Shown here one piece after another: positions 472 to 6,229 of a DNA stretch of 6,229 nucleotides. The notes beneath the pieces were generated by a model. The model was given only the letters and a program-made list of their open reading frames with translations, was not told the origin of the DNA and did not search any database. The position numbers and the translations under genes are program-made. Position 1 is the first letter of the stretch; every line of letters starts with the position of its first letter. This stretch comes from Labilithrix sp. GTDB taxonomy: Bacteria > Myxococcota > Polyangia > Polyangiales > Polyangiaceae. The stretch is from contig JAQBQL010000150.1 in the NCBI GenBank assembly GCA_028287035.1, forward strand, positions 1 through 6,229. Direction: 5' to 3'.

Positions 472-2328
472 TCAGGGCGAGAACGCCTGGTCGAACGAGA
501 AGAAGAAGCCCACCGGGTCGACGCGCGTGGTGATGCCCTGCTCCGGGAAGGGGCCGCGCTGCATCGGGAACGCGAGGTCGGCGCGGAAGACGAGACGGTT
601 CACCTGCGGGAAGAGCGCGCGGAGGCCGACGCCCACCGACTGCTTGGCGCGGAGCATGTCGAAGCCCTGCGCGGCGTCGCCCACGTCGTAGAACGCAACG
701 CCGCCGAGCGCGCACTTCAGGATCTCCACCGACGTCGAGCGAAACTCGAGGTTGTAGAAGATCGCGTCCTTGCCGAAGAAGTAGTTCGATGGATATCCGC
801 GCAGCCGGTCGTCGCCGCCCGTGGTGGTCCGCGCGCGCAGGTAGTTCTGGTAGCGGTTGATGAAGTACGCGTTCATCACGACGCGACCGAAGCCGGTGCG
901 CGGGCTGATCGCGCCGAACGATCCGGCCACCGAGGCGTCGGTGATGTCGCCGTGCGAGTCCTCGGCGAAGGTCGAGACGCTGGCGCCCGCGAGCCCGTCC
1001 CCGAGGCGCAGCGAGTAGCCGACCTTGGCACTGAAGCCGACGAGATCGCGCGTCGACCCGAGCGCCTTCGCGACGGGGTAGACCGACGCGCTCACGTCGT
1101 GCCCGAGCCGGAAATCCTCCTGGAGCGCGAGCGTGTTGATGTCGATGGTGCGCAGGTAGTGGTTCGAGAACGTCGCCCAGGAGAGCGCGGGATAGACCCG
1201 GTCCTCGCCGCGAGGCACGAAGCGCTGCTGGAAGTCGGCCACCGCGCGGGGGTCGAACGCCTCGTTGCCGAACGACGTGTACTCGGCCTTCGCCGCGTTC
1301 ATGGACAGCGAGAAGTTGTTCTTGATGCCCCAGCCGAACGAGCGCGTCACACCGACCGACGCGCCGCGCACCGCGCTCTTGTACTGGGTCGGGATGTTGT
1401 CGGCGACGTTGGGCGTCACGCTCGAGTTGAAGAGGCCGACCTGCGCGTTGACGTAGCGGCGCGCGACGCCGGTGCTCTCGCTGGCGGAGGCCGACCAGCC
1501 CCACTTGGTCCGCGTCGAGTAGAGCCCCTGCCCGACCGAGAGCGAGAGCGACGAACCCTCGGCCTCACCGGTCCGCCGGTTCACGCTGATGCTCGCCCCC
1601 GCCGACGCGCCGATCCAGCTGCTGCCGAAGCGCGGGATCTTGTAGCCCGCTCCGAGCGTGTAGCTCTCCGGCTGCAGCTGGAAGCTCGTCGAGACGGTGT
1701 GCTGCCACCCGAAGAGGTTCGTCTCCTGGGGCACGATGAGCAGGTTCTCGAGCCCGCCCGGGGTGACGGACATGTCGTAGGAGAGACGAAGGCTCCAGAT
1801 GTCCTTCGTGATGACGAGCAGCTTCACCCGGTCGGGCGCCGTGCCGGTGATGGGCACGATGATGATGATCGAGGCCTGGAGCGGCATGCGCGCGCGCATG
1901 TTGCGGGCGGTCTCGTCGACCCAGATCTGCTCGTACGCGTCGCCGACGCCGATCAGCATCTCGCGGCGGATCACGTAGTCCTTCGACACGGCGTGCAGGC
2001 TGTTGGCGAGCTTCCGCGTCTTGATGCCGAGCACCTGCTCCGGGATCGGATCGCGGTCCTCGAGGACCTCGAGCCGGCGCGTCTCGACCCCCTCGATGAT
2101 CTTGCCCTCGGGGGCGCGGTCGATCGTCTCGCCGGTCTCGGCGAGCGTGCGCGCGATGGTCTCCTTCTCGTAGGCGGAGTAGCCGAACGTCTTCGACGTG
2201 GGCCGCGACTGCGCCAGCGCGGCCCCGCTCGCCAGCGAGAGCGCGCACGCGGTGAGGACCCCCACGGTCGCTAGGCGCCACTGCACGGCGGCGAGACTAC
2301 CCGACGTCCTTCGTGCCCCGCGCGACAT
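472..2328 (-). CDS. Omp85/BamA-like outer-membrane beta-barrel protein
   Basis: A 618-residue predicted outer-membrane protein. Residues 1-40 look like a Sec signal peptide: an arginine-containing start, a hydrophobic core (VGVLTACALSLASGAA) and an ALA-Q cleavage site. Residues of roughly 85-180 form an alpha/beta region resembling a single POTRA domain (DYVIRREMLIGVGDAY, then a VKLLVITKD strand). From about 185 to the end there are alternating amphipathic strands rich in Ser, Gly, Tyr and Phe, as in a transmembrane barrel. Near the C-terminus, GDDRLRGY (ending at residue 512) matches the (V/L)RG(F/Y) motif of the loop that folds into Omp85 barrels. GVAFYDVGD (about 544-551) matches the strand following it. 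The barrel ends in FFFSFDQAFSP, so the last residue is Pro rather than the usual aromatic. Family knowledge suggests a role in outer-membrane protein insertion or secretion, but one POTRA argues against it being housekeeping BamA itself. A GTG 14 codons downstream is an alternative start; the ATG is preferred because it gives a complete signal peptide. It probably shares a transcript with the EEP gene 25 nt upstream. Confidence 0.85.
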   Translation of the reverse strand: MSRGARRTSGSLAAVQWRLATVGVLTACALSLASGAALAQSRPTSKTFGYSAYEKETIARTLAETGETIDRAPEGKIIEGVETRRLEVLEDRDPIPEQVLGIKTRKLANSLHAVSKDYVIRREMLIGVGDAYEQIWVDETARNMRARMPLQASIIIIVPITGTAPDRVKLLVITKDIWSLRLSYDMSVTPGGLENLLIVPQETNLFGWQHTVSTSFQLQPESYTLGAGYKIPRFGSSWIGASAGASISVNRRTGEAEGSSLSLSVGQGLYSTRTKWGWSASASESTGVARRYVNAQVGLFNSSVTPNVADNIPTQYKSAVRGASVGVTRSFGWGIKNNFSLSMNAAKAEYTSFGNEAFDPRAVADFQQRFVPRGEDRVYPALSWATFSNHYLRTIDINTLALQEDFRLGHDVSASVYPVAKALGSTRDLVGFSAKVGYSLRLGDGLAGASVSTFAEDSHGDITDASVAGSFGAISPRTGFGRVVMNAYFINRYQNYLRARTTTGGDDRLRGYPSNYFFGKDAIFYNLEFRSTSVEILKCALGGVAFYDVGDAAQGFDMLRAKQSVGVGLRALFPQVNRLVFRADLAFPMQRGPFPEQGITTRVDPVGFFFSFDQAFSP

Positions 2329-2353: not shown

Positions 2354-3154
2354 TCACCGACCGGCGGTGACGAGCGCCGTCACGCCGAAGTGGTCGCTGG
2401 GGAACACGCCGCCATGGGGCGCATCGAAGCAGACGCGCGCCTCGCGGGGCTCACCGCGGAGCCCCTCGTCCGGGCGCACGAAGATGTAGTCGATGCGCCG
2501 GTCGGGCTCGCGGAGCGGCTCGGCGAACGCGTTGCGCTTCGAGAACGTCGCGCCCGTCCCCTCCCCGTCGGCCGCCGCGACGGCGAACGCGTCGGCGAAG
2601 TAGACGCTCTCGCCGCCGAGGCTCGTGAGGCCACGGAGGTACCGGATCTCGTCCGAGTCCGGCTCGGCGTTGAAGTCGCCCATGACGATCGGCGGGAAGC
2701 CGCCCTCGGGCGCGAGCCGCGCCACCGCCGCCGCGAGGGCCTTCACCTGCAGCTGCCGCACGTGCCCGTGATGCAGCTTCCAGTTGAGATGCGTGCAGAA
2801 TACCGGGACCCTTCCGAACGGCGAATCGAGCTCCGCGAAGACCACGCTGCGGGTCTCGTCGGTCGCGCCGGTCGGGAGCGGCACCACCTCGGTCCGCGCG
2901 ACCGGCCAGCGCGAGAGGATGGCGTTGCCGAAGGGAAAGCCGTGGTTCTCGGAGGCCATGCCCCACGCCACCTCGTAGCCGAGGCCGTCGGCGACGAGCG
3001 CCGCCTGGTCGAGCGCTGGAAACCGCAGCACCTCCTGCAGGGCGAGGACGTCCGCGCCCAGCGCGCGGACCCCCGCCCGGATGGCGACGAGCCGCTCCTC
3101 CCACGGGCCGAGACGGTTCCAGATGTTGAGCGTGGCGACGCGGAAGGCTCTCAT
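2354..3154 (-). CDS. Endonuclease/exonuclease/phosphatase (EEP) family hydrolase
   Basis: A 266-residue protein of the metal-dependent EEP superfamily (DNase I, exonuclease III, sphingomyelinase and inositol-phosphatase relatives), which hydrolyses phosphodiester or phosphoester bonds. All family motifs are present in order: LNIWN (residues 9-13), LALQE with the metal-binding Glu41, GNAILSR (76-82), THL with His122, GDFNAEP with Asp160 and Asn162, RIDYIF with Asp222, and SDH with Asp254 and His255. The catalytic set is therefore complete and activity is expected. No signal peptide or membrane segment is seen, so it is probably cytosolic. The reading frame stays open 26 codons further upstream, to 3232. 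I chose the ATG at 3152-3154 because the core strand RVATLNIWN normally lies near the N-terminus and the extension is Arg-rich without family features. The ribosome-binding site is weak. Substrate cannot be deduced; ExoIII-type DNA repair, a lipid or a sugar phosphate are all possible. It is the first gene of a two-gene unit with the outer-membrane protein. Confidence 0.9.
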   Translation of the reverse strand: MRAFRVATLNIWNRLGPWEERLVAIRAGVRALGADVLALQEVLRFPALDQAALVADGLGYEVAWGMASENHGFPFGNAILSRWPVARTEVVPLPTGATDETRSVVFAELDSPFGRVPVFCTHLNWKLHHGHVRQLQVKALAAAVARLAPEGGFPPIVMGDFNAEPDSDEIRYLRGLTSLGGESVYFADAFAVAAADGEGTGATFSKRNAFAEPLREPDRRIDYIFVRPDEGLRGEPREARVCFDAPHGGVFPSDHFGVTALVTAGR

Positions 3155-3230
3155 GGCGACCGCAGGGTACGACAAAAGCCGAGCGAAATCCCGGCCCCGC
3201 ACGCGCCGCGCTCCGCTCTTCAAACGTGCC

Positions 3231-3260
3231 ATTCAAATACCAAAAACAGTCGAACATCAA
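3231..3260 (-). promoter_or_regulatory. Possible promoter of the EEP-outer-membrane protein unit
   Basis: This is the most AT-rich stretch upstream of the minus-strand genes. On the minus strand it offers TTGATG (3255-3260) and TTGAAT (3231-3236), 18 nt apart, each matching the sigma-70 consensus at four of six positions. An overlapping TATTTG (3234-3239) is an alternative -10. Transcription from here would start near 3224 and give a leader of about 70 nt before the ATG at 3154. This is a weak by-eye match. Confidence 0.28.
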
Positions 3261-3343: not shown

Positions 3344-3366
3344 CACCCCTCCTCCGGGCACGCATT

Positions 3367-3389
3367 CCTGTGGACAAACCTGTGGACAA
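3367..3389. repeat. Tandem 11-bp repeat containing two DnaA-box-like 9-mers
   Basis: CCTGTGGACAA occurs twice in direct repeat (3367-3377 and 3379-3389) with a 12-bp period. Each copy contains TGTGGACAA, the reverse complement of TTGTCCACA, which is the DnaA-box form common in GC-rich bacteria. A third related 9-mer, TTCTCCACA, lies at 3271-3279 in the opposite orientation. An AT-rich patch follows at 3388-3400. With only two or three boxes and no dnaA nearby, this looks more like a DnaA-responsive regulatory site, or a site for another regulator, than a replication origin. Confidence 0.45.
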
Positions 3390-3418
3390 TAATAGGTTTG
3401 AGCGCGATCCTATTTCTG

Positions 3419-3447
3419 TTGATCGGATTCGCGGAGTCCGGCATAAA
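3419..3447 (+). promoter_or_regulatory. Candidate sigma-70-type promoter for the large RNA
   Basis: TTGATC (3419-3424) and CATAAA (3442-3447) are separated by exactly 17 nt, each matching the consensus at four of six positions. They lie just downstream of an AT-rich patch and the DnaA-like repeats. A start near 3454 would put the first RNA-like hairpin (3462-3480) about 8 nt into the transcript. This is the best plus-strand candidate I can find in 3280-3460, but it is a by-eye match only. Confidence 0.38.
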
Positions 3448-3461
3448 CCGCTCATGAAGTT

Positions 3462-3607
3462 CGCGGCACATCGAGCCGCGGGCCTCTTGGTCGTAGAAGC
3501 CGTCGGGGCGCTGCGGTCGGCGTAGGTACAGCGGGAGCAAGCAGTCTCCTCGCGAAAGGCCACGCAGACCGAGCCGTGCTGCGTCGCTTGGGTCGTCAGG
3601 CCCAGGC
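3462..3607 (+). other. RNA candidate, 5' hairpin cluster
   Basis: Three local stems. CGCGGC/GCCGCG pairs 3462-3467 with 3475-3480 (6 bp, 7-nt loop). ACGCAG/CTGCGT pairs 3562-3567 with 3579-3584 (6 bp). 3586-3592 pairs with 3601-3607 (7 bp including one G-U, 8-nt loop). They are the first structured elements after the candidate promoter. Stem calls are by eye, and alternative pairings exist. Confidence 0.45.
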
Positions 3608-3731
3608 GAAACGGAACGGTCGAAAAAAAGGCGACTCGCTCTCCGAAGTTGCAATGCTCTCGAGCCTCGAGCTCGAAGCACTCTGCCCCTGCCATGGGAG
3701 CCAGCGTGCGAGCGGCGTGAGGACGGAGAGC

Positions 3732-3790
3732 CGACGCGAGCAATTGCTCGGTCGCAACGGTGAAAGGCACCCTGATCCCCGTGACACCGT
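3732..3790 (+). other. RNA candidate, palindromic hairpin and closed stem-loop
   Basis: A 14-nt perfect palindrome (CGAGCAATTGCTCG, 3737-3750) folds as a 5-bp hairpin with an AATT loop. It is extended by CGAC/GTCG (3732-3735 with 3751-3754), giving 9 bp with one bulged G at 3736. It is followed by ACGGTG/CACCGT, pairing 3757-3762 with 3785-3790 around a 22-nt loop. Confidence 0.48.
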
Positions 3791-3885
3791 CAGCCTTCGC
3801 GGGCCGCCGGAAGAACGTGGGTCTAGGTCGGTCCGTCACGTCGGTCGGGGGCTCGTTCCCCGGCAGTCGGACGCACCGGCGACAG

Positions 3886-4063
3886 CGGGTGTCCTCTGGA
3901 GAACCGAGGAGGGGAACGTCTTCGTGACGTCCTTCGCTCGTTCCAGAGACCCGTGCACGTCTCGCCCGTGAGTTTCAGGTGTCCCGAAAGGGGTGTCGGG
4001 CTCGTGGGCCGGTGATGGTGCCATCGCCTCCGGGCAAACCCACGAAGGTGGGAGGAACCGGAG
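3886..4063 (+). other. RNA candidate, long stem followed by two nested stem-loops
   Basis: This is the best-organised part of the region. 3886-3890 pairs with 3949-3953 and 3894-3900 with 3942-3948, giving 12 bp with a 3-nt bulge and an inner ACGTC/GACGT hairpin (3916-3930). 3964-3972 then pairs with 4001-4009 (9 bp, two G-U) around a CCC-GAAA-GGG hairpin (3983-3992). A GGTGATGG/CCATCGCC hairpin follows at 4011-4028. CTCCGG/CCGGAG (4028-4033 with 4058-4063) encloses CCCAC-GAAG-GTGGG (4039-4052). The stems abut each other with few unpaired bases, like helices around a multibranch junction. Confidence 0.52.
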
Positions 4064-4080
4064 ATCGGGGGCATCGTCAC

Positions 4081-4174
4081 TGGACGGAAATTGCGCGGCT
4101 CGCCGCGCGTCACCGTTCACGAGAGTGAGCTTGCGTGACGCGTCAGAAAAGGATGATGGTCATGGCCATCATCC
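4081..4174 (+). other. RNA candidate, alternative stems and a 9-bp hairpin
   Basis: A 9-bp perfect hairpin (GGATGATGG/CCATCATCC, 4151-4159 with 4166-4174, 6-nt loop) sits beside mutually exclusive pairings upstream. In one, 4081-4087 pairs with 4113-4119 around a GCGCGG/CCGCGC hairpin (4093-4108). In the other, CGCGTCAC (4106-4113) pairs with GTGACGCG (4135-4142) around a TCAC-GAGA-GTGA hairpin (4117-4128). The two folds share bases and cannot coexist, so either one is fortuitous or the RNA can switch. Confidence 0.42.
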
Positions 4175-4324
4175 CTGCGAGGACTCGAGGGCCCGAAGCT
4201 CAGGGCCCGTACGTCGTGGTTGGTTGCAGAAGTCGTCAGGCAGCATCCTGGCCTCGAAGAAGCTCGCACGCAGCGCTCCAAAAAGAGTGGCGGTACGGGT
4301 GAACGGGGGCCTAGCAAGGCGCGA

Positions 4325-4446
4325 GGCGTGGGGCGAGAGCCCTGCGGACCACGCCGAGCGAAACGGATGGGCTGGAGAGCCGGTTCTCACGCGTGCTGAA
4401 TGGCGTGCGGGATCGGCCGAGACCCAGAGCGGCACGAGAGTGCCGT
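4325..4446 (+). other. RNA candidate, GAGA-capped stems
   Basis: GGCGTGG (4325-4331) pairs with CCACGCC (4349-4355), enclosing a short stem capped by GAGA (4335-4338). GGCAC-GAGA-GTGCC (4431-4444) is extended by a C-G and a G-U pair to 4429-4446, making a 7-bp hairpin with a GNRA tetraloop. Such loops commonly dock into receptors in large folded RNAs. Confidence 0.47.
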
Positions 4447-4605
4447 TCGGCGGTCGCCTCGTCACCCGGAAGGGCGGCGTGGTGGTCGCGGGACCGGGGC
4501 TGTAATGGCCACCGGATCCTGGGAAGGGTCCTTGACGGTGGAAGGCACTTCGGGTCGATACGAATCATCCCCTTTCACGAGCGGGTGGTGACGGCGATCT
4601 CGGCG

Positions 4606-4861
4606 GCTTGCTCACGCAAGCAGCGACAGGAGTGTCAGAGGTACGATCGCATTCGCTCGCACCGTGGGAAGAAAACGCCCACGCTCGATACCCCCGAACG
4701 CTCCGGACGAAAACCCGGAGAAGAAGGGATTCGAGGCACATGGCAGTGCGCTACGAGCGTCGGTCCGCCGAAGCGTCAGGAGTGTCGTGAAACACTCCTC
4801 TCCCCGGTACATCCAGCAGGGCCCAAGACCCTGCGGGATATCCCCGCGACGAAAGTTGCGG
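4606..4861 (+). other. RNA candidate, run of seven successive hairpins
   Basis: In order: GCTTGC/GCAAGC (4606-4621), GACA/TGTC (4625-4636), CGTGGG/CCCACG (4663-4683), CTCCGG/CCGGAG (4701-4720), AGGAGTGT/ACACTCCT (4778-4799, 8 bp), GCAGGG/CCCTGC (4816-4834), and a 7-bp stem 4844-4850 with 4855-4861 capped by GAAA. Unpaired linkers are A-rich (GAAGAAAAC, GACGAAAAC), as is common in structured RNA. One loop, TCAC in the first hairpin, would be GNRA on the opposite strand. Confidence 0.47.
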
Positions 4862-5290
4862 CAGTGAGCCGGGAACACACGAGGTACGGGTAAACGTCAA
4901 TCGTTCAGGTGGCAGACGTCGGTCGTACGCATCGCGCGCTAACGCGCTAGCCAGAAGGAAGCCCGGAGCACCGCCTGACGCGGGGCCCGGGCCGAGAAAC
5001 GGCGAAACGATGCGCGGTACCAGACGCATCTCAAAAAGGTGCAGCAGGTCCGGTTCGTGGGTTTCGGCCCGCGAGCTCTCGATACGACAGAAGGCATTCT
5101 CGGGCTCTCGCCCGGCCAGCTCTCACGGGCGGGTCGCCGCGAAGGTCCTCTGGCTCGAAGGAAGCGGATCGGTCGACACAGAGGTCGATCGGGCGTGCCT
5201 CCGGGCGACACGAAGAATGTCAGAGGCTCGGCATGGTCTGGTGAAGGTTCCCCGAGGCCCGAGAGGGTTCGAGAGGAGCTCGCATCCCTC

Positions 5291-5464
5291 GACACTGAAA
5301 AGGTGTCGCGTGTGCGGTGCGCCAGGTCACGTCCCGCCGAAGCTGACGGCAGCGAATAGCTCCGTCGACTCTCCCCCTTCCTGGCTACGCGAATAGCCGG
5401 GACCGCTGGTGAGAGCACCTCGAACGAAACGGCGATGGCGCGGAGGGCGACGGCCCTCCCGTGC
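5291..5464 (+). other. RNA candidate, 3' hairpin cluster before the terminator
   Basis: GACAC/GTGTC (5291-5295 with 5303-5307) has an A-rich loop. GCTG-ACGG-CAGC lies at 5342-5353. CTGGCTA (5381-5387) pairs with TAGCCGG (5394-5400), 7 bp with one T-G. GGAGGGC-GACG-GCCCTCC (5442-5459) is a perfect 7-bp hairpin extended by four pairs (5438-5441 with 5461-5464) across a bulged C. About 70 nt further on the terminator stem begins. Confidence 0.48.
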
Positions 5465-5532
5465 AACGTCCAACGGGGCCGGCCATCGAGCCGGAGCGAG
5501 CGCTAAACTGCTCCCCCACGGAAAGTGAACGC

Positions 5533-5576
5533 CAGAAGGGGCGGCCGGGTGACCGGTCGTCCCCTTCTGCTTTTTT
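5533..5576 (+). terminator. Strong intrinsic terminator of the large RNA candidate
   Basis: 5533-5541 pairs with 5561-5569 (9 bp). After a single bulged T at 5560, 5542-5548 pairs with 5553-5559 (7 bp, one G-U), capped by a GTGA tetraloop (5549-5552). A C and six T residues (5571-5576) follow. The T-tract lies only on the plus strand. Because no plus-strand protein gene lies upstream of it back to lon, this terminator needs some other plus-strand transcript to end, which supports an RNA gene in the preceding 2 kb. Confidence 0.92.
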
Positions 5577-5619
5577 GTGCGCGCGAAAGGTCAGCCGCGT
5601 TCTAGGGTGACGGCGCACG

Positions 5620-6229
5620 ATGGACGAGGAACAGAAGGAAGCGCGGCGAAGGATGCTCGCGGAGCTCGAGGGCTCCTGGGACTCGGTGCAGCCGGCCGTC
5701 CCTCCCGGGTCTTCCCCGGAGCTCGAGGCCGCGCCTCGTTCGGAGCCCCCGAGCGCGGAGGTCCAGGCGGCGCTCGACGCCGCCGCCGACCGGCTCGTCG
5801 ACTCCCTGGATCCGCCGCCGGTCTCCGTACCGACGATGGCGGAGCTCGACGACCTCGACTCGGGCTGGGGCGCCGAGGAGGCCGACGAGCCCGACGAGCC
5901 GGAGCCCGAGCGCCCGGACGAACGCCTCGACCCCGTCGCCTACGCGGCGGCGCAGGCGGCGTACGTCGAGGCGCGCCAGGCGTATCTCGAGGAGAAGAAG
6001 GCGCGCGACGAGCGCAACGCGGCGCGCCGTGAGCGCCGGCGCATGAAGCTCGACGCCCGGAAGTCGCGTCAGAAGGCGCGCGCCCAGGCGGCGAAGCAGA
6101 AGCAGAAGCAGAAGTCGAAGAAAGTCCCGCCGGCGACCCAGCTGAAGGCCGAGAAGGAAGCGAAGGCGCTCGCGCGTGCCGAGGGCTTCGCGAAGCAGCA
6201 GCAGCGCGCGGCGGCCGCACGCGACGCCG
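5620..6229 (+). CDS. Hypothetical charged low-complexity protein, N-terminal part
   Basis: The frame is open from the ATG at 5620 through the window end (203 codons seen, C-terminus missing). An in-frame TGA at 5608-5610 rules out an upstream start, and AGGGTGA (5604-5610) is a well-placed ribosome-binding site. The protein starts MDEEQKEARRRM. Residues of roughly 13-105 are acidic and rich in Pro, Ala, Glu and Asp (DEPDEPEPERPDE), likely disordered. From about 106 it is strongly basic and Ala/Gln/Lys/Arg-rich, with a coiled-coil look and an exact (AAGCAG)3 repeat at 6094-6111 encoding KQKQKQ. No signal peptide, membrane segment or known domain is seen. Codon third positions are nearly all G or C, which supports this frame over the antisense frames. 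Charge segregation could suit a nucleic-acid-binding or scaffold protein, but I do not recognise it. It starts 43 bp after the terminator, so it needs its own promoter, which I could not identify. Confidence 0.75.
   Translation, partial: MDEEQKEARRRMLAELEGSWDSVQPAVPPGSSPELEAAPRSEPPSAEVQAALDAAADRLVDSLDPPPVSVPTMAELDDLDSGWGAEEADEPDEPEPERPDERLDPVAYAAAQAAYVEARQAYLEEKKARDERNAARRERRRMKLDARKSRQKARAQAAKQKQKQKSKKVPPATQLKAEKEAKALARAEGFAKQQQRAAAARDA

Follow-up and report, generated by a model that had tools for sequence, protein, structure and literature searches.

A conserved giant structured RNA gene of about 2.1 kb, very probably stand-alone, in Labilithrix and its relatives in the order Polyangiales

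A metagenome contig of 6229 bases from Labilithrix sp. (JAQBQL010000150.1; this whole stretch of DNA is hereafter called the window) carries, on the plus strand between two protein genes, a region at 3454-5576 that the initial annotation had proposed, from its letters, to be a giant structured non-coding RNA. Comparison with homologs shows a conserved RNA gene whose ends and structure are kept in near relatives, and we are highly confident, on sequence grounds, that it is a single stand-alone structured RNA gene of ~2.12 kb. Its promoter region carries boxes resembling those of DnaA in every locus examined, and its promoter element and 5′ block were traced in 51 of 183 genomes of the order. 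The parts of the locus are as follows.

3369..3377, plus strand: upstream box 1, TGTGGACAA, one mismatch from TGTGGATAA, which we take to be the DnaA box consensus
3381..3389, plus strand: upstream box 2, TGTGGACAA, 12 bp after box 1 and in the same orientation
3419..3424, plus strand: predicted -35 element TTGATC, aligned in 22 sequences
3442..3447, plus strand: predicted -10 element CATAAA, 17 nt past the -35 element; GCATAA-like, by eye, in most of 22 aligned sequences
3450..3526, plus strand: most conserved 5′ block, GAAGTTCGCGG...GTAGAAGCCG...GGCGCTGCGG, the basis of search models R1 and R2
3454..5576, plus strand: giant structured non-coding RNA gene, from homologs, covariation, lack of a codon signal and sharp conservation ends; start placed from the predicted -10 element
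3480..4194, plus strand: domain I, closed by 3480-3492/4182-4194 (alignment fold without span limit)
4204..4892, plus strand: domain II, closed by 4204-4218/4878-4892 (alignment fold without span limit)
4895..5431, plus strand: domain III, closed by 4906-4911/5416-5421 plus weaker flanking pairs
5469..5522, plus strand: 3′ tail region ahead of the terminator, in which only the 3-pair closing helix 5469-5471/5520-5522 is well supported
5533..5576, plus strand: intrinsic terminator with a 16-bp stem, GNRA loop (GTGA) and T6

Conservation, coding potential and structure

Identity to the window is 49-72% in eleven near sequences that align from end to end, one of which, L128, is cut by its contig end. 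Gene boundaries were placed by a conservation profile of invariant columns per 50 nt in 10 near sequences, and this revealed 0-4% invariant columns up to 3360, 34% in both bins of 3360-3459, and 0-52% inside the gene, while at the 3′ side the values were 36% at 5510-5559, 8% at 5560-5609, and 0 beyond. Near-relative conservation begins at ~3360-3370 and covers the boxes, promoter, RNA, and terminator, and little else; inside it, domain order is kept in near homologs, and linkers such as 3960-4010 and 4710-4760 are poorly conserved. The start at 3454 given by the initial annotation matches the approximate transcription start predicted from the -10 element, to which gene conservation adds the boxes and promoter upstream. 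The textbook terminator that it placed at the end was recovered by a window scan as a hairpin at 5538-5563, which is conserved in near relatives, has a GNRA loop in 11/11 near homologs, and shows covariation at 9 of its 16 pairs.

The region had also been described as gene-free, and this held. The longest stop-to-stop frame in 3350-5590 is 208 aa (20 base shuffles averaged 210 aa), and none of the six frames of the stretch reached a Pfam cut-off (the best was an RraA-like match of 17.5 bits versus the 24.5 required). When 12 sequences were compared with the window, 568 of the 658 indels shorter than 60 nt were not multiples of 3, and the mismatch rates by codon phase were 0.359, 0.364, and 0.366; comparison of the sequences thereby shows no conserved reading frame in the stretch. 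A short 5′ open reading frame (ORF; ATGAAG...) was rejected by eye, its frame being broken in close homologs. GC-rich DNA does hold long open frames, and that of 399 aa from stop to stop in L134 exceeds the maximum of 290 aa reached in 20 shuffles. That the region codes for protein or is a pseudogene is nonetheless next to impossible, given the lack of codon phase, the indels that do not come in threes, the six window frames without a Pfam match over cut-off, and the presence of compensatory changes, and a protein gene was rejected on the first two of these counts.

Single-sequence folding of 13 subwindows of 300 nt, starting at 3451-5251, gave plus-strand z-scores of -0.4 to -3.9, with 10/13 at or below -1.5. 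Since the minus strand reached -4.3 in one subwindow and coding windows outside the stretch reached -3.2, folds of single sequences carry little weight, and the structure was examined in homologs instead. RNAalifold, run on 12 homologs with a span of up to 900, gave -1285.7 for the plus strand with 699 pairs, of which 276 had a double compensatory change and were at least 80% canonical. The corresponding values were -719 ± 16 with 60 ± 8 compensated pairs in 40 column shuffles, -624 ± 17 with 82 ± 8 in 40 tree simulations, and -991.3 with 216 for the reverse complement. The dense plus-strand stems first noted by the initial annotation were thus confirmed by the 12-homolog fold against its controls, the z-scores of single sequences being weak on their own.

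The structure was also transferred between sets of sequences. The structure derived from 8 sequences, when imposed on 4 others, produced 87.8% canonical pairs and 99 compensated pairs, compared with 38-43% and 4-16 for its eight slid counterparts. The fold obtained from the window sequence alone, when imposed on the other 11, produced 73.2% canonical pairs versus 39-43% and 67 compensated pairs versus 6-12. The near structure A4, from 11 near sequences, was then carried over a joint sequence-only alignment to 28 distant sequences, with 391 of its 651 pairs testable. Here, 63.4% of pairs were canonical (39-44% when slid), 73 were compensated (8-22 when slid), and 11/391 were significant at E ≤ 0.05 by our own R-scape-like test (0-2 when slid). 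With all 40 sequences, 17/445 pairs were significant and slid controls gave 0-4. Significant pairs are spread over all three domains plus the terminator: the inner long helix of domain II (4232-4240/4531-4539) covaries at 7 of 9 pairs, and pair 4234-4537 within it is significant in the 28 distant homologs too, as are pairs 4918-5088, 5098-5216, 5100-5214, and 5251-5275 of domain III. A fold of unlimited span gave domains at 3480-4194, 4204-4892, and 4895-5431, followed by the tail and terminator. The initial annotation had named a conserved frame, or a lack of covariation in a diverse alignment, as findings that would speak against an RNA; indels and codon phase gave no such frame, and covariation was strong. 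As judged from these alignments, the structure and boundaries of the RNA are well supported. The window lacks ~65 nt near 3923 (A4 columns 616-684) that near relatives possess, and stems are gained or lost between homologs.

Distribution, length and neighbouring genes

An alignment of the flanking nuclease (A1; 22 of 120 listed proteins) yielded 80 loci from genome contigs, and homologs of the stretch were present in 3 of them (L002, L003, and L011), 4.6-6.3 kb from the nuclease. A DNA search of 183 genomes of the order returned matches at E ≤ 0.001 in 27, several of which are short or chance pieces. R1, a covariance model of the 5′ 77 nt made from 22 sequences, was run over 317 genomes of the class; its E-values are inflated in GC-rich DNA, and at least 233/317 genomes passed E ≤ 0.01, most by chance. 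A true locus was defined as box, promoter, and 5′ block together, judged by reading the fetched matches, and on such reading R1 matches L198, L199, L201, and L206-L210 proved false, likewise two in L213. R2, a second, sequence-only model of the 5′ block made from 49 sequences, matched 51 of the 183 genomes at E ≤ 1e-5, these being Labilithrix/Minicystis relatives, with one copy in 50 of the 51 genomes and two in G118. Three newly found genomes and the second G118 copy look true on reading, so the 5′ end has been seen for all 51. In G118, two different RNA copies (L203 and L231) lie on two contigs, representing either a second copy or a mixed bin.

Across the phylum, a sample of 377 genomes contained 25 with an R1 match at E ≤ 1e-6, including 19 known true ones; the remainder were G152, which is the false L206, and five (L216-L220) judged by eye to be without boxes and promoter. 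Class-level matches outside the order (L201, L207, and L209) likewise had neither boxes nor promoter, and no verified copy outside the order was found, weaker class-level matches there being left unread.

The extent of the RNA was then followed beyond its 5′ block. A profile of twelve sequences, compared with 40 more distant loci, matched at least 50 positions beyond the 5′ block in 22, at least 500 positions in 13, and at least 1500 in 3; separate downstream matches were collinear at 20/20 loci, and none lay on the minus strand. A 40-sequence profile tested on 12 held-out loci gave near full-length matches at 6 (L181, L205, L214, L231, L232, and L233), partial matches at 5, and no match at L196. 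Of 48 loci, 39 could be assigned a 3′ end consisting of a hairpin plus T residues, at a median distance of 2171 nt downstream of GAAGTTCGCGG (range 1672-2924 nt); at 8 loci with several candidates the first was taken, except at L192. This rule covered only distances above 1200 nt or 1600 nt, so short forms were missed until a separate check. Coding-like frames start 251-1200 nt past the 5′ block in L195, L196, L202, and L211.

The homologs sit between different flanking genes, the situation in which the initial annotation had advised seeking them. The genes of the window around the RNA are listed here.

1-408: 3′ end of lon (Pfam Lon_C)
472-2328, minus strand: outer-membrane protein gene, with a weak Omp85 match under cut-off
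2354..3232, minus strand: endonuclease/exonuclease/phosphatase gene (Pfam PF03372), divergent flank, given as context
5620..6228, plus strand: incomplete gene for a Lys/Glu-rich protein, flank, given as context

The nearest named relatives of the nuclease belong to Labilithrix and other Polyangiaceae. Flanking genes vary by lineage, and the largest ORF family adjoining the RNA recurs in 8 loci (in loci without a set 3′ end, flank ORFs were counted from an assumed 2300 nt). A general partner gene was rejected, since flank families are lineage-specific and none is general in the fetched flanks. In 8 loci, that of Minicystis rosea included, the divergent upstream neighbour of the RNA is one related gene family, two tested members of which (L185:3-1217, minus strand, and L200:4222-5400, plus strand) match the rRNA methyltransferase family RlmN below its cut-off. 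A Lys/Asp/Glu-rich protein with the motif LLEELEDGW is encoded by the next gene after the RNA in the window, L129, L130, and L134, and three complete copies have a C-terminal hydrophobic helix; related matches exist in L127 and L132, and a motif search found LLEELEDGW at no other locus.

Promoter, upstream boxes and candidate regulators

In the 160 nt that precede the 5′ block, a box within one mismatch of TGTGGATAA is present on the plus strand at 53/53 loci and on the minus strand at 1/53. Every locus thereby shows the mark of a DnaA-regulated gene, DnaA boxes at the promoter, when measured against the consensus that we assume. Two or more plus-strand boxes occur at 32/53 loci, 17 of which have a pair 11-12 bp apart, and the exact box is found in 30 of the first 49 loci, the background further upstream being 0.013 per 160 nt. 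TTG precedes GAAG by 25-55 nt at 53/53 loci (no background was computed), and a sigma-70 scan of the window found no site.

The tandem pattern TGTGGANAA(N2-3)TGTGGANA had 16 matches in 15 genomes, about once per genome, and 12 of these lie at the promoter of the RNA; the reversed control pattern had 0. Elsewhere, the pattern was found ~210 bp ahead of a dnaA match in M. rosea, before mraZ in G123 and in G125 (one match in each), and at a fourth site discussed below. Within 400 nt upstream of mraZ, a box was present, in either orientation, in 16 of the 26 regions that could be read (one of 27 loci was too short), and the background in mraZ loci overall was 0.12 per 400 nt. These boxes suggest control of the division cluster by DnaA or MraZ in the order. 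Tandem TGTGGATAA-like boxes upstream of mraZ are located at L235 1809-1827 and L236 1940-1958.

From these motifs, the regulator of the RNA is probably DnaA, with MraZ as its rival; both are cell-cycle proteins, and we lean slightly towards a cell-cycle-linked control of the RNA. The rival holds that the boxes are MraZ operators and that the RNA belongs to the division-cluster regulon, not that of DnaA. MraZ binds GTGG-type direct repeats that are short and spaced by about one helical turn, a habit consistent with the nearly uniform orientation of the boxes at the RNA (53/53 plus versus 1 minus), and the tandem motif upstream of mraZ in G123 and G125 points the same way. However, the match to the DnaA box spans the full 9-mer, dnaA itself is preceded by a box pair in M. 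rosea, and the boxes at mraZ occur in either orientation; we consider MraZ operators rather unlikely.

Interpretation and comparison with known RNAs

The explanation that we favour overall, with moderate confidence, is a stand-alone RNA, either a ribonucleoprotein core or a ribozyme, whose synthesis is tied to replication or division via the boxes. Transcription, regulator, and function are here what we infer. A sigma-70-type promoter would start transcription and the intrinsic terminator would end it; the RNA would form three domains, each with its own closing long-range helix, and conserved unpaired motifs would separate its variable stems. DnaA (or, less likely, MraZ) would bind the upstream boxes, and RNA synthesis would thus follow the state of replication or division. 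The RNA would act as itself, because a multi-domain architecture and fixed unpaired motifs are conserved and not a frame or one neighbour gene. A catalytic or ribonucleoprotein-core role was initially rated an even chance and was lowered to a little under that because short forms were found.

Several observations weigh against this explanation. Regarding structure, one slid control of the 40-sequence test reached 4 significant pairs, and the well-covarying helices do not include the one that closes domain I. The helix-level score, by which 75/92 helices pass and no slid ones do, is partly circular, as the structure came from the same data and the score rewards pairing too, and covariation over all column pairs, a test of low power, gave at E ≤ 1 only 1 pair with 12 sequences and 7 pairs with 40. 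Regarding distribution, 132 of the 183 genomes of the order had no R2 match at E ≤ 1e-5, and 18 of the 40 distant loci matched the twelve-sequence profile only near the 5′ end. The M. rosea locus (L200) has a strong GNRA-capped terminator 788 nt past the 5′ block and a coding-like frame from 1029; as read from its sequence, this copy ends after ~0.8 kb and retains promoter, terminator, and the 5′ portion of domain I. A coding-like frame is reached at 1170-1200 nt in G146 and G147, and as early as 488 and 251 nt in L195 and L196, copies that may be remnants. Such early frames or terminators indicate that some lineages can do without domains II and III. Regarding control, similarity to the DnaA box with at most one mismatch does not prove that DnaA binds, 10 of the 26 mraZ regions have no box, and G146 and G147 do not have the tandem pattern. 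The fourth off-site match of this pattern, in G145 (L237 1479-1498, G145:C1:20778), is 20 kb from dnaA, in a genome of 12.2 Mb and with no gene identified beside the pair. A single box is about as frequent genome-wide as the reversed control; pairing and place are therefore what is special.

The short forms bear most directly on whether the region is one functional RNA or, instead, several adjacent structured RNAs or a precursor that is cut up. The domains are separable, as the M. rosea relative with only the 5′ part and terminator illustrates, the linkers are poorly conserved, and 5 of the 39 loci with a set 3′ end have an earlier hairpin-plus-T candidate. Yet the ends carry a single conserved promoter block and a single conserved terminator, the window scan found no terminator-like site on the plus strand inside the stretch, domain order is constant in near homologs, and a cut precursor would remain one gene; we consider this alternative improbable. 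The claim of the initial annotation that the region is one RNA, which it had itself called an inference, gains support from a single promoter, the terminator of near relatives, and three long-range helices; it is weakened by distant relatives that are much shorter.

That the DNA is the working part, as a DnaA-titrating or origin-like locus with the RNA as by-product, would fit tandem DnaA-like boxes that are rare in the genome and concentrated at the RNA promoter. However, dnaA is 1.1, 2.9, 3.0, and 2.0 Mb away in G145, G146, G147, and M. rosea, respectively, and 2 kb of compensatory changes favouring the plus strand need selection on RNA; this reading is very improbable, and an origin of replication was rejected on the distances of 1.1-3.0 Mb in these four genomes. 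Size range and rich structure would also suit a decayed mobile element or a group II intron-like ribozyme, a possibility that is fainter still, as neither the window nor 10 homologous loci gave an Rfam match over cut-off, the RNA is single-copy in 50/51 genomes with its own promoter and terminator, and a viral-contig pattern matched only a phage gene by chance.

We return to the stand-alone RNA. It measures ~2.1 kb in the window, its family extends through one order, and it is preceded by a rare promoter element that recurs at dnaA or mraZ in some of these genomes. Its long and short forms in related hosts constitute a natural truncation series, for which M. rosea is a sequenced, named short-form host. 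A bolder and doubtful proposal is that it is a new RNA machine of one order, catalytic or the core of a ribonucleoprotein, that attains the size of an rRNA in the Labilithrix lineage, exceeds OLE, ROOL, and GOLLD, and has its synthesis coupled to replication by DnaA through tandem boxes found otherwise, in some of these genomes, at dnaA and the mraZ division cluster. Tested against known families, the RNA fits none. If all giant ornate RNAs are counted as one kind, the RNA would be a far larger new member of that kind.

The absence of a known family had been suspected from the sequence, and Rfam 15 (4227 families) bore this out: the window gave 6 matches at E ≤ 10 and 10 homologous loci gave 2 at E ≤ 1, all under cut-off, and the only match touching 3454-5576 scored 17.6 bits, on the minus strand at the stretch end, against a cut-off of 72.2. 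Models of OLE, GOLLD, ROOL, group II intron, and LSU/SSU rRNA had no match over cut-off in the window or the 10 loci, and a known Rfam family was rejected on this basis. A phage link found no support in narrow tests: 17 scanned loci contained 0 tRNAs, one exact pattern, which covers close relatives only, had a chance match in a phage gene among 2.9 million viral contigs, and BLAST of phage records gave no match beyond a 28-nt piece. BLAST of plasmids gave nothing informative. Among the matches listed for open-access full text on large or structured RNAs in myxobacteria, Polyangiales, Sorangium, and Myxococcota, a search with most subscription papers outside its scope, the RNA is unreported, and a word search of two discovery surveys (PMC11109978 and PMC8632094) returned no mention of these bacteria. 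In the available portion of its genome report, M. rosea DSM 24000 has four rRNA operons and two listed non-coding RNAs, RNase P and SRP (PMC8436480).

Bacteria have few large structured RNAs, and where the job of one is known it is basic chemistry, as in the ribosome, RNase P, and self-splicing introns (PMC11332333). Sizes and traits of OLE, ROOL, and GOLLD are taken from excerpts of PMC12286853, PMC11332333, and PMC5643018. OLE RNA (~600 nt, mostly Bacillota) is likewise large, stand-alone, and structured, with conserved unpaired nucleotides and an unsettled function, according to these excerpts; unlike OLE, the window's RNA is three to four times longer, belongs to another phylum, has no Rfam match, and has no recurrent partner gene in its fetched flanks. 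GOLLD, of phages and prophages, is described there as giant, ornate, and unexplained in function, is the largest of three ornate classes compared, with many members above 800 nt (PMC12286853), and resembles in length the short M. rosea form; it is often near tRNAs, in contrast to the ~2.1-kb RNA here, with 0 tRNAs in 17 loci and no Rfam match. ROOL and an abundant RNA of Lactobacillus salivarius are, in the same excerpts, also long, structured, and without a settled function, the latter at 520 nt compared with ~2.1 kb and no Rfam match for the window's RNA. Further marks of these classes are homo-oligomer formation, for OLE, GOLLD, and ROOL, and, for OLE, the partner proteins OapA, OapB, and OapC. 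Group II introns are similar in size and are multi-domain RNAs, whereas the RNA described here has its own promoter and terminator, has no Rfam match over cut-off, and lies between genes. At a size between those of 16S and 23S rRNA, it differs from the rRNAs in having no rRNA match in Rfam, and it shares with them, as a resemblance only, domains each closed by a long-range helix.

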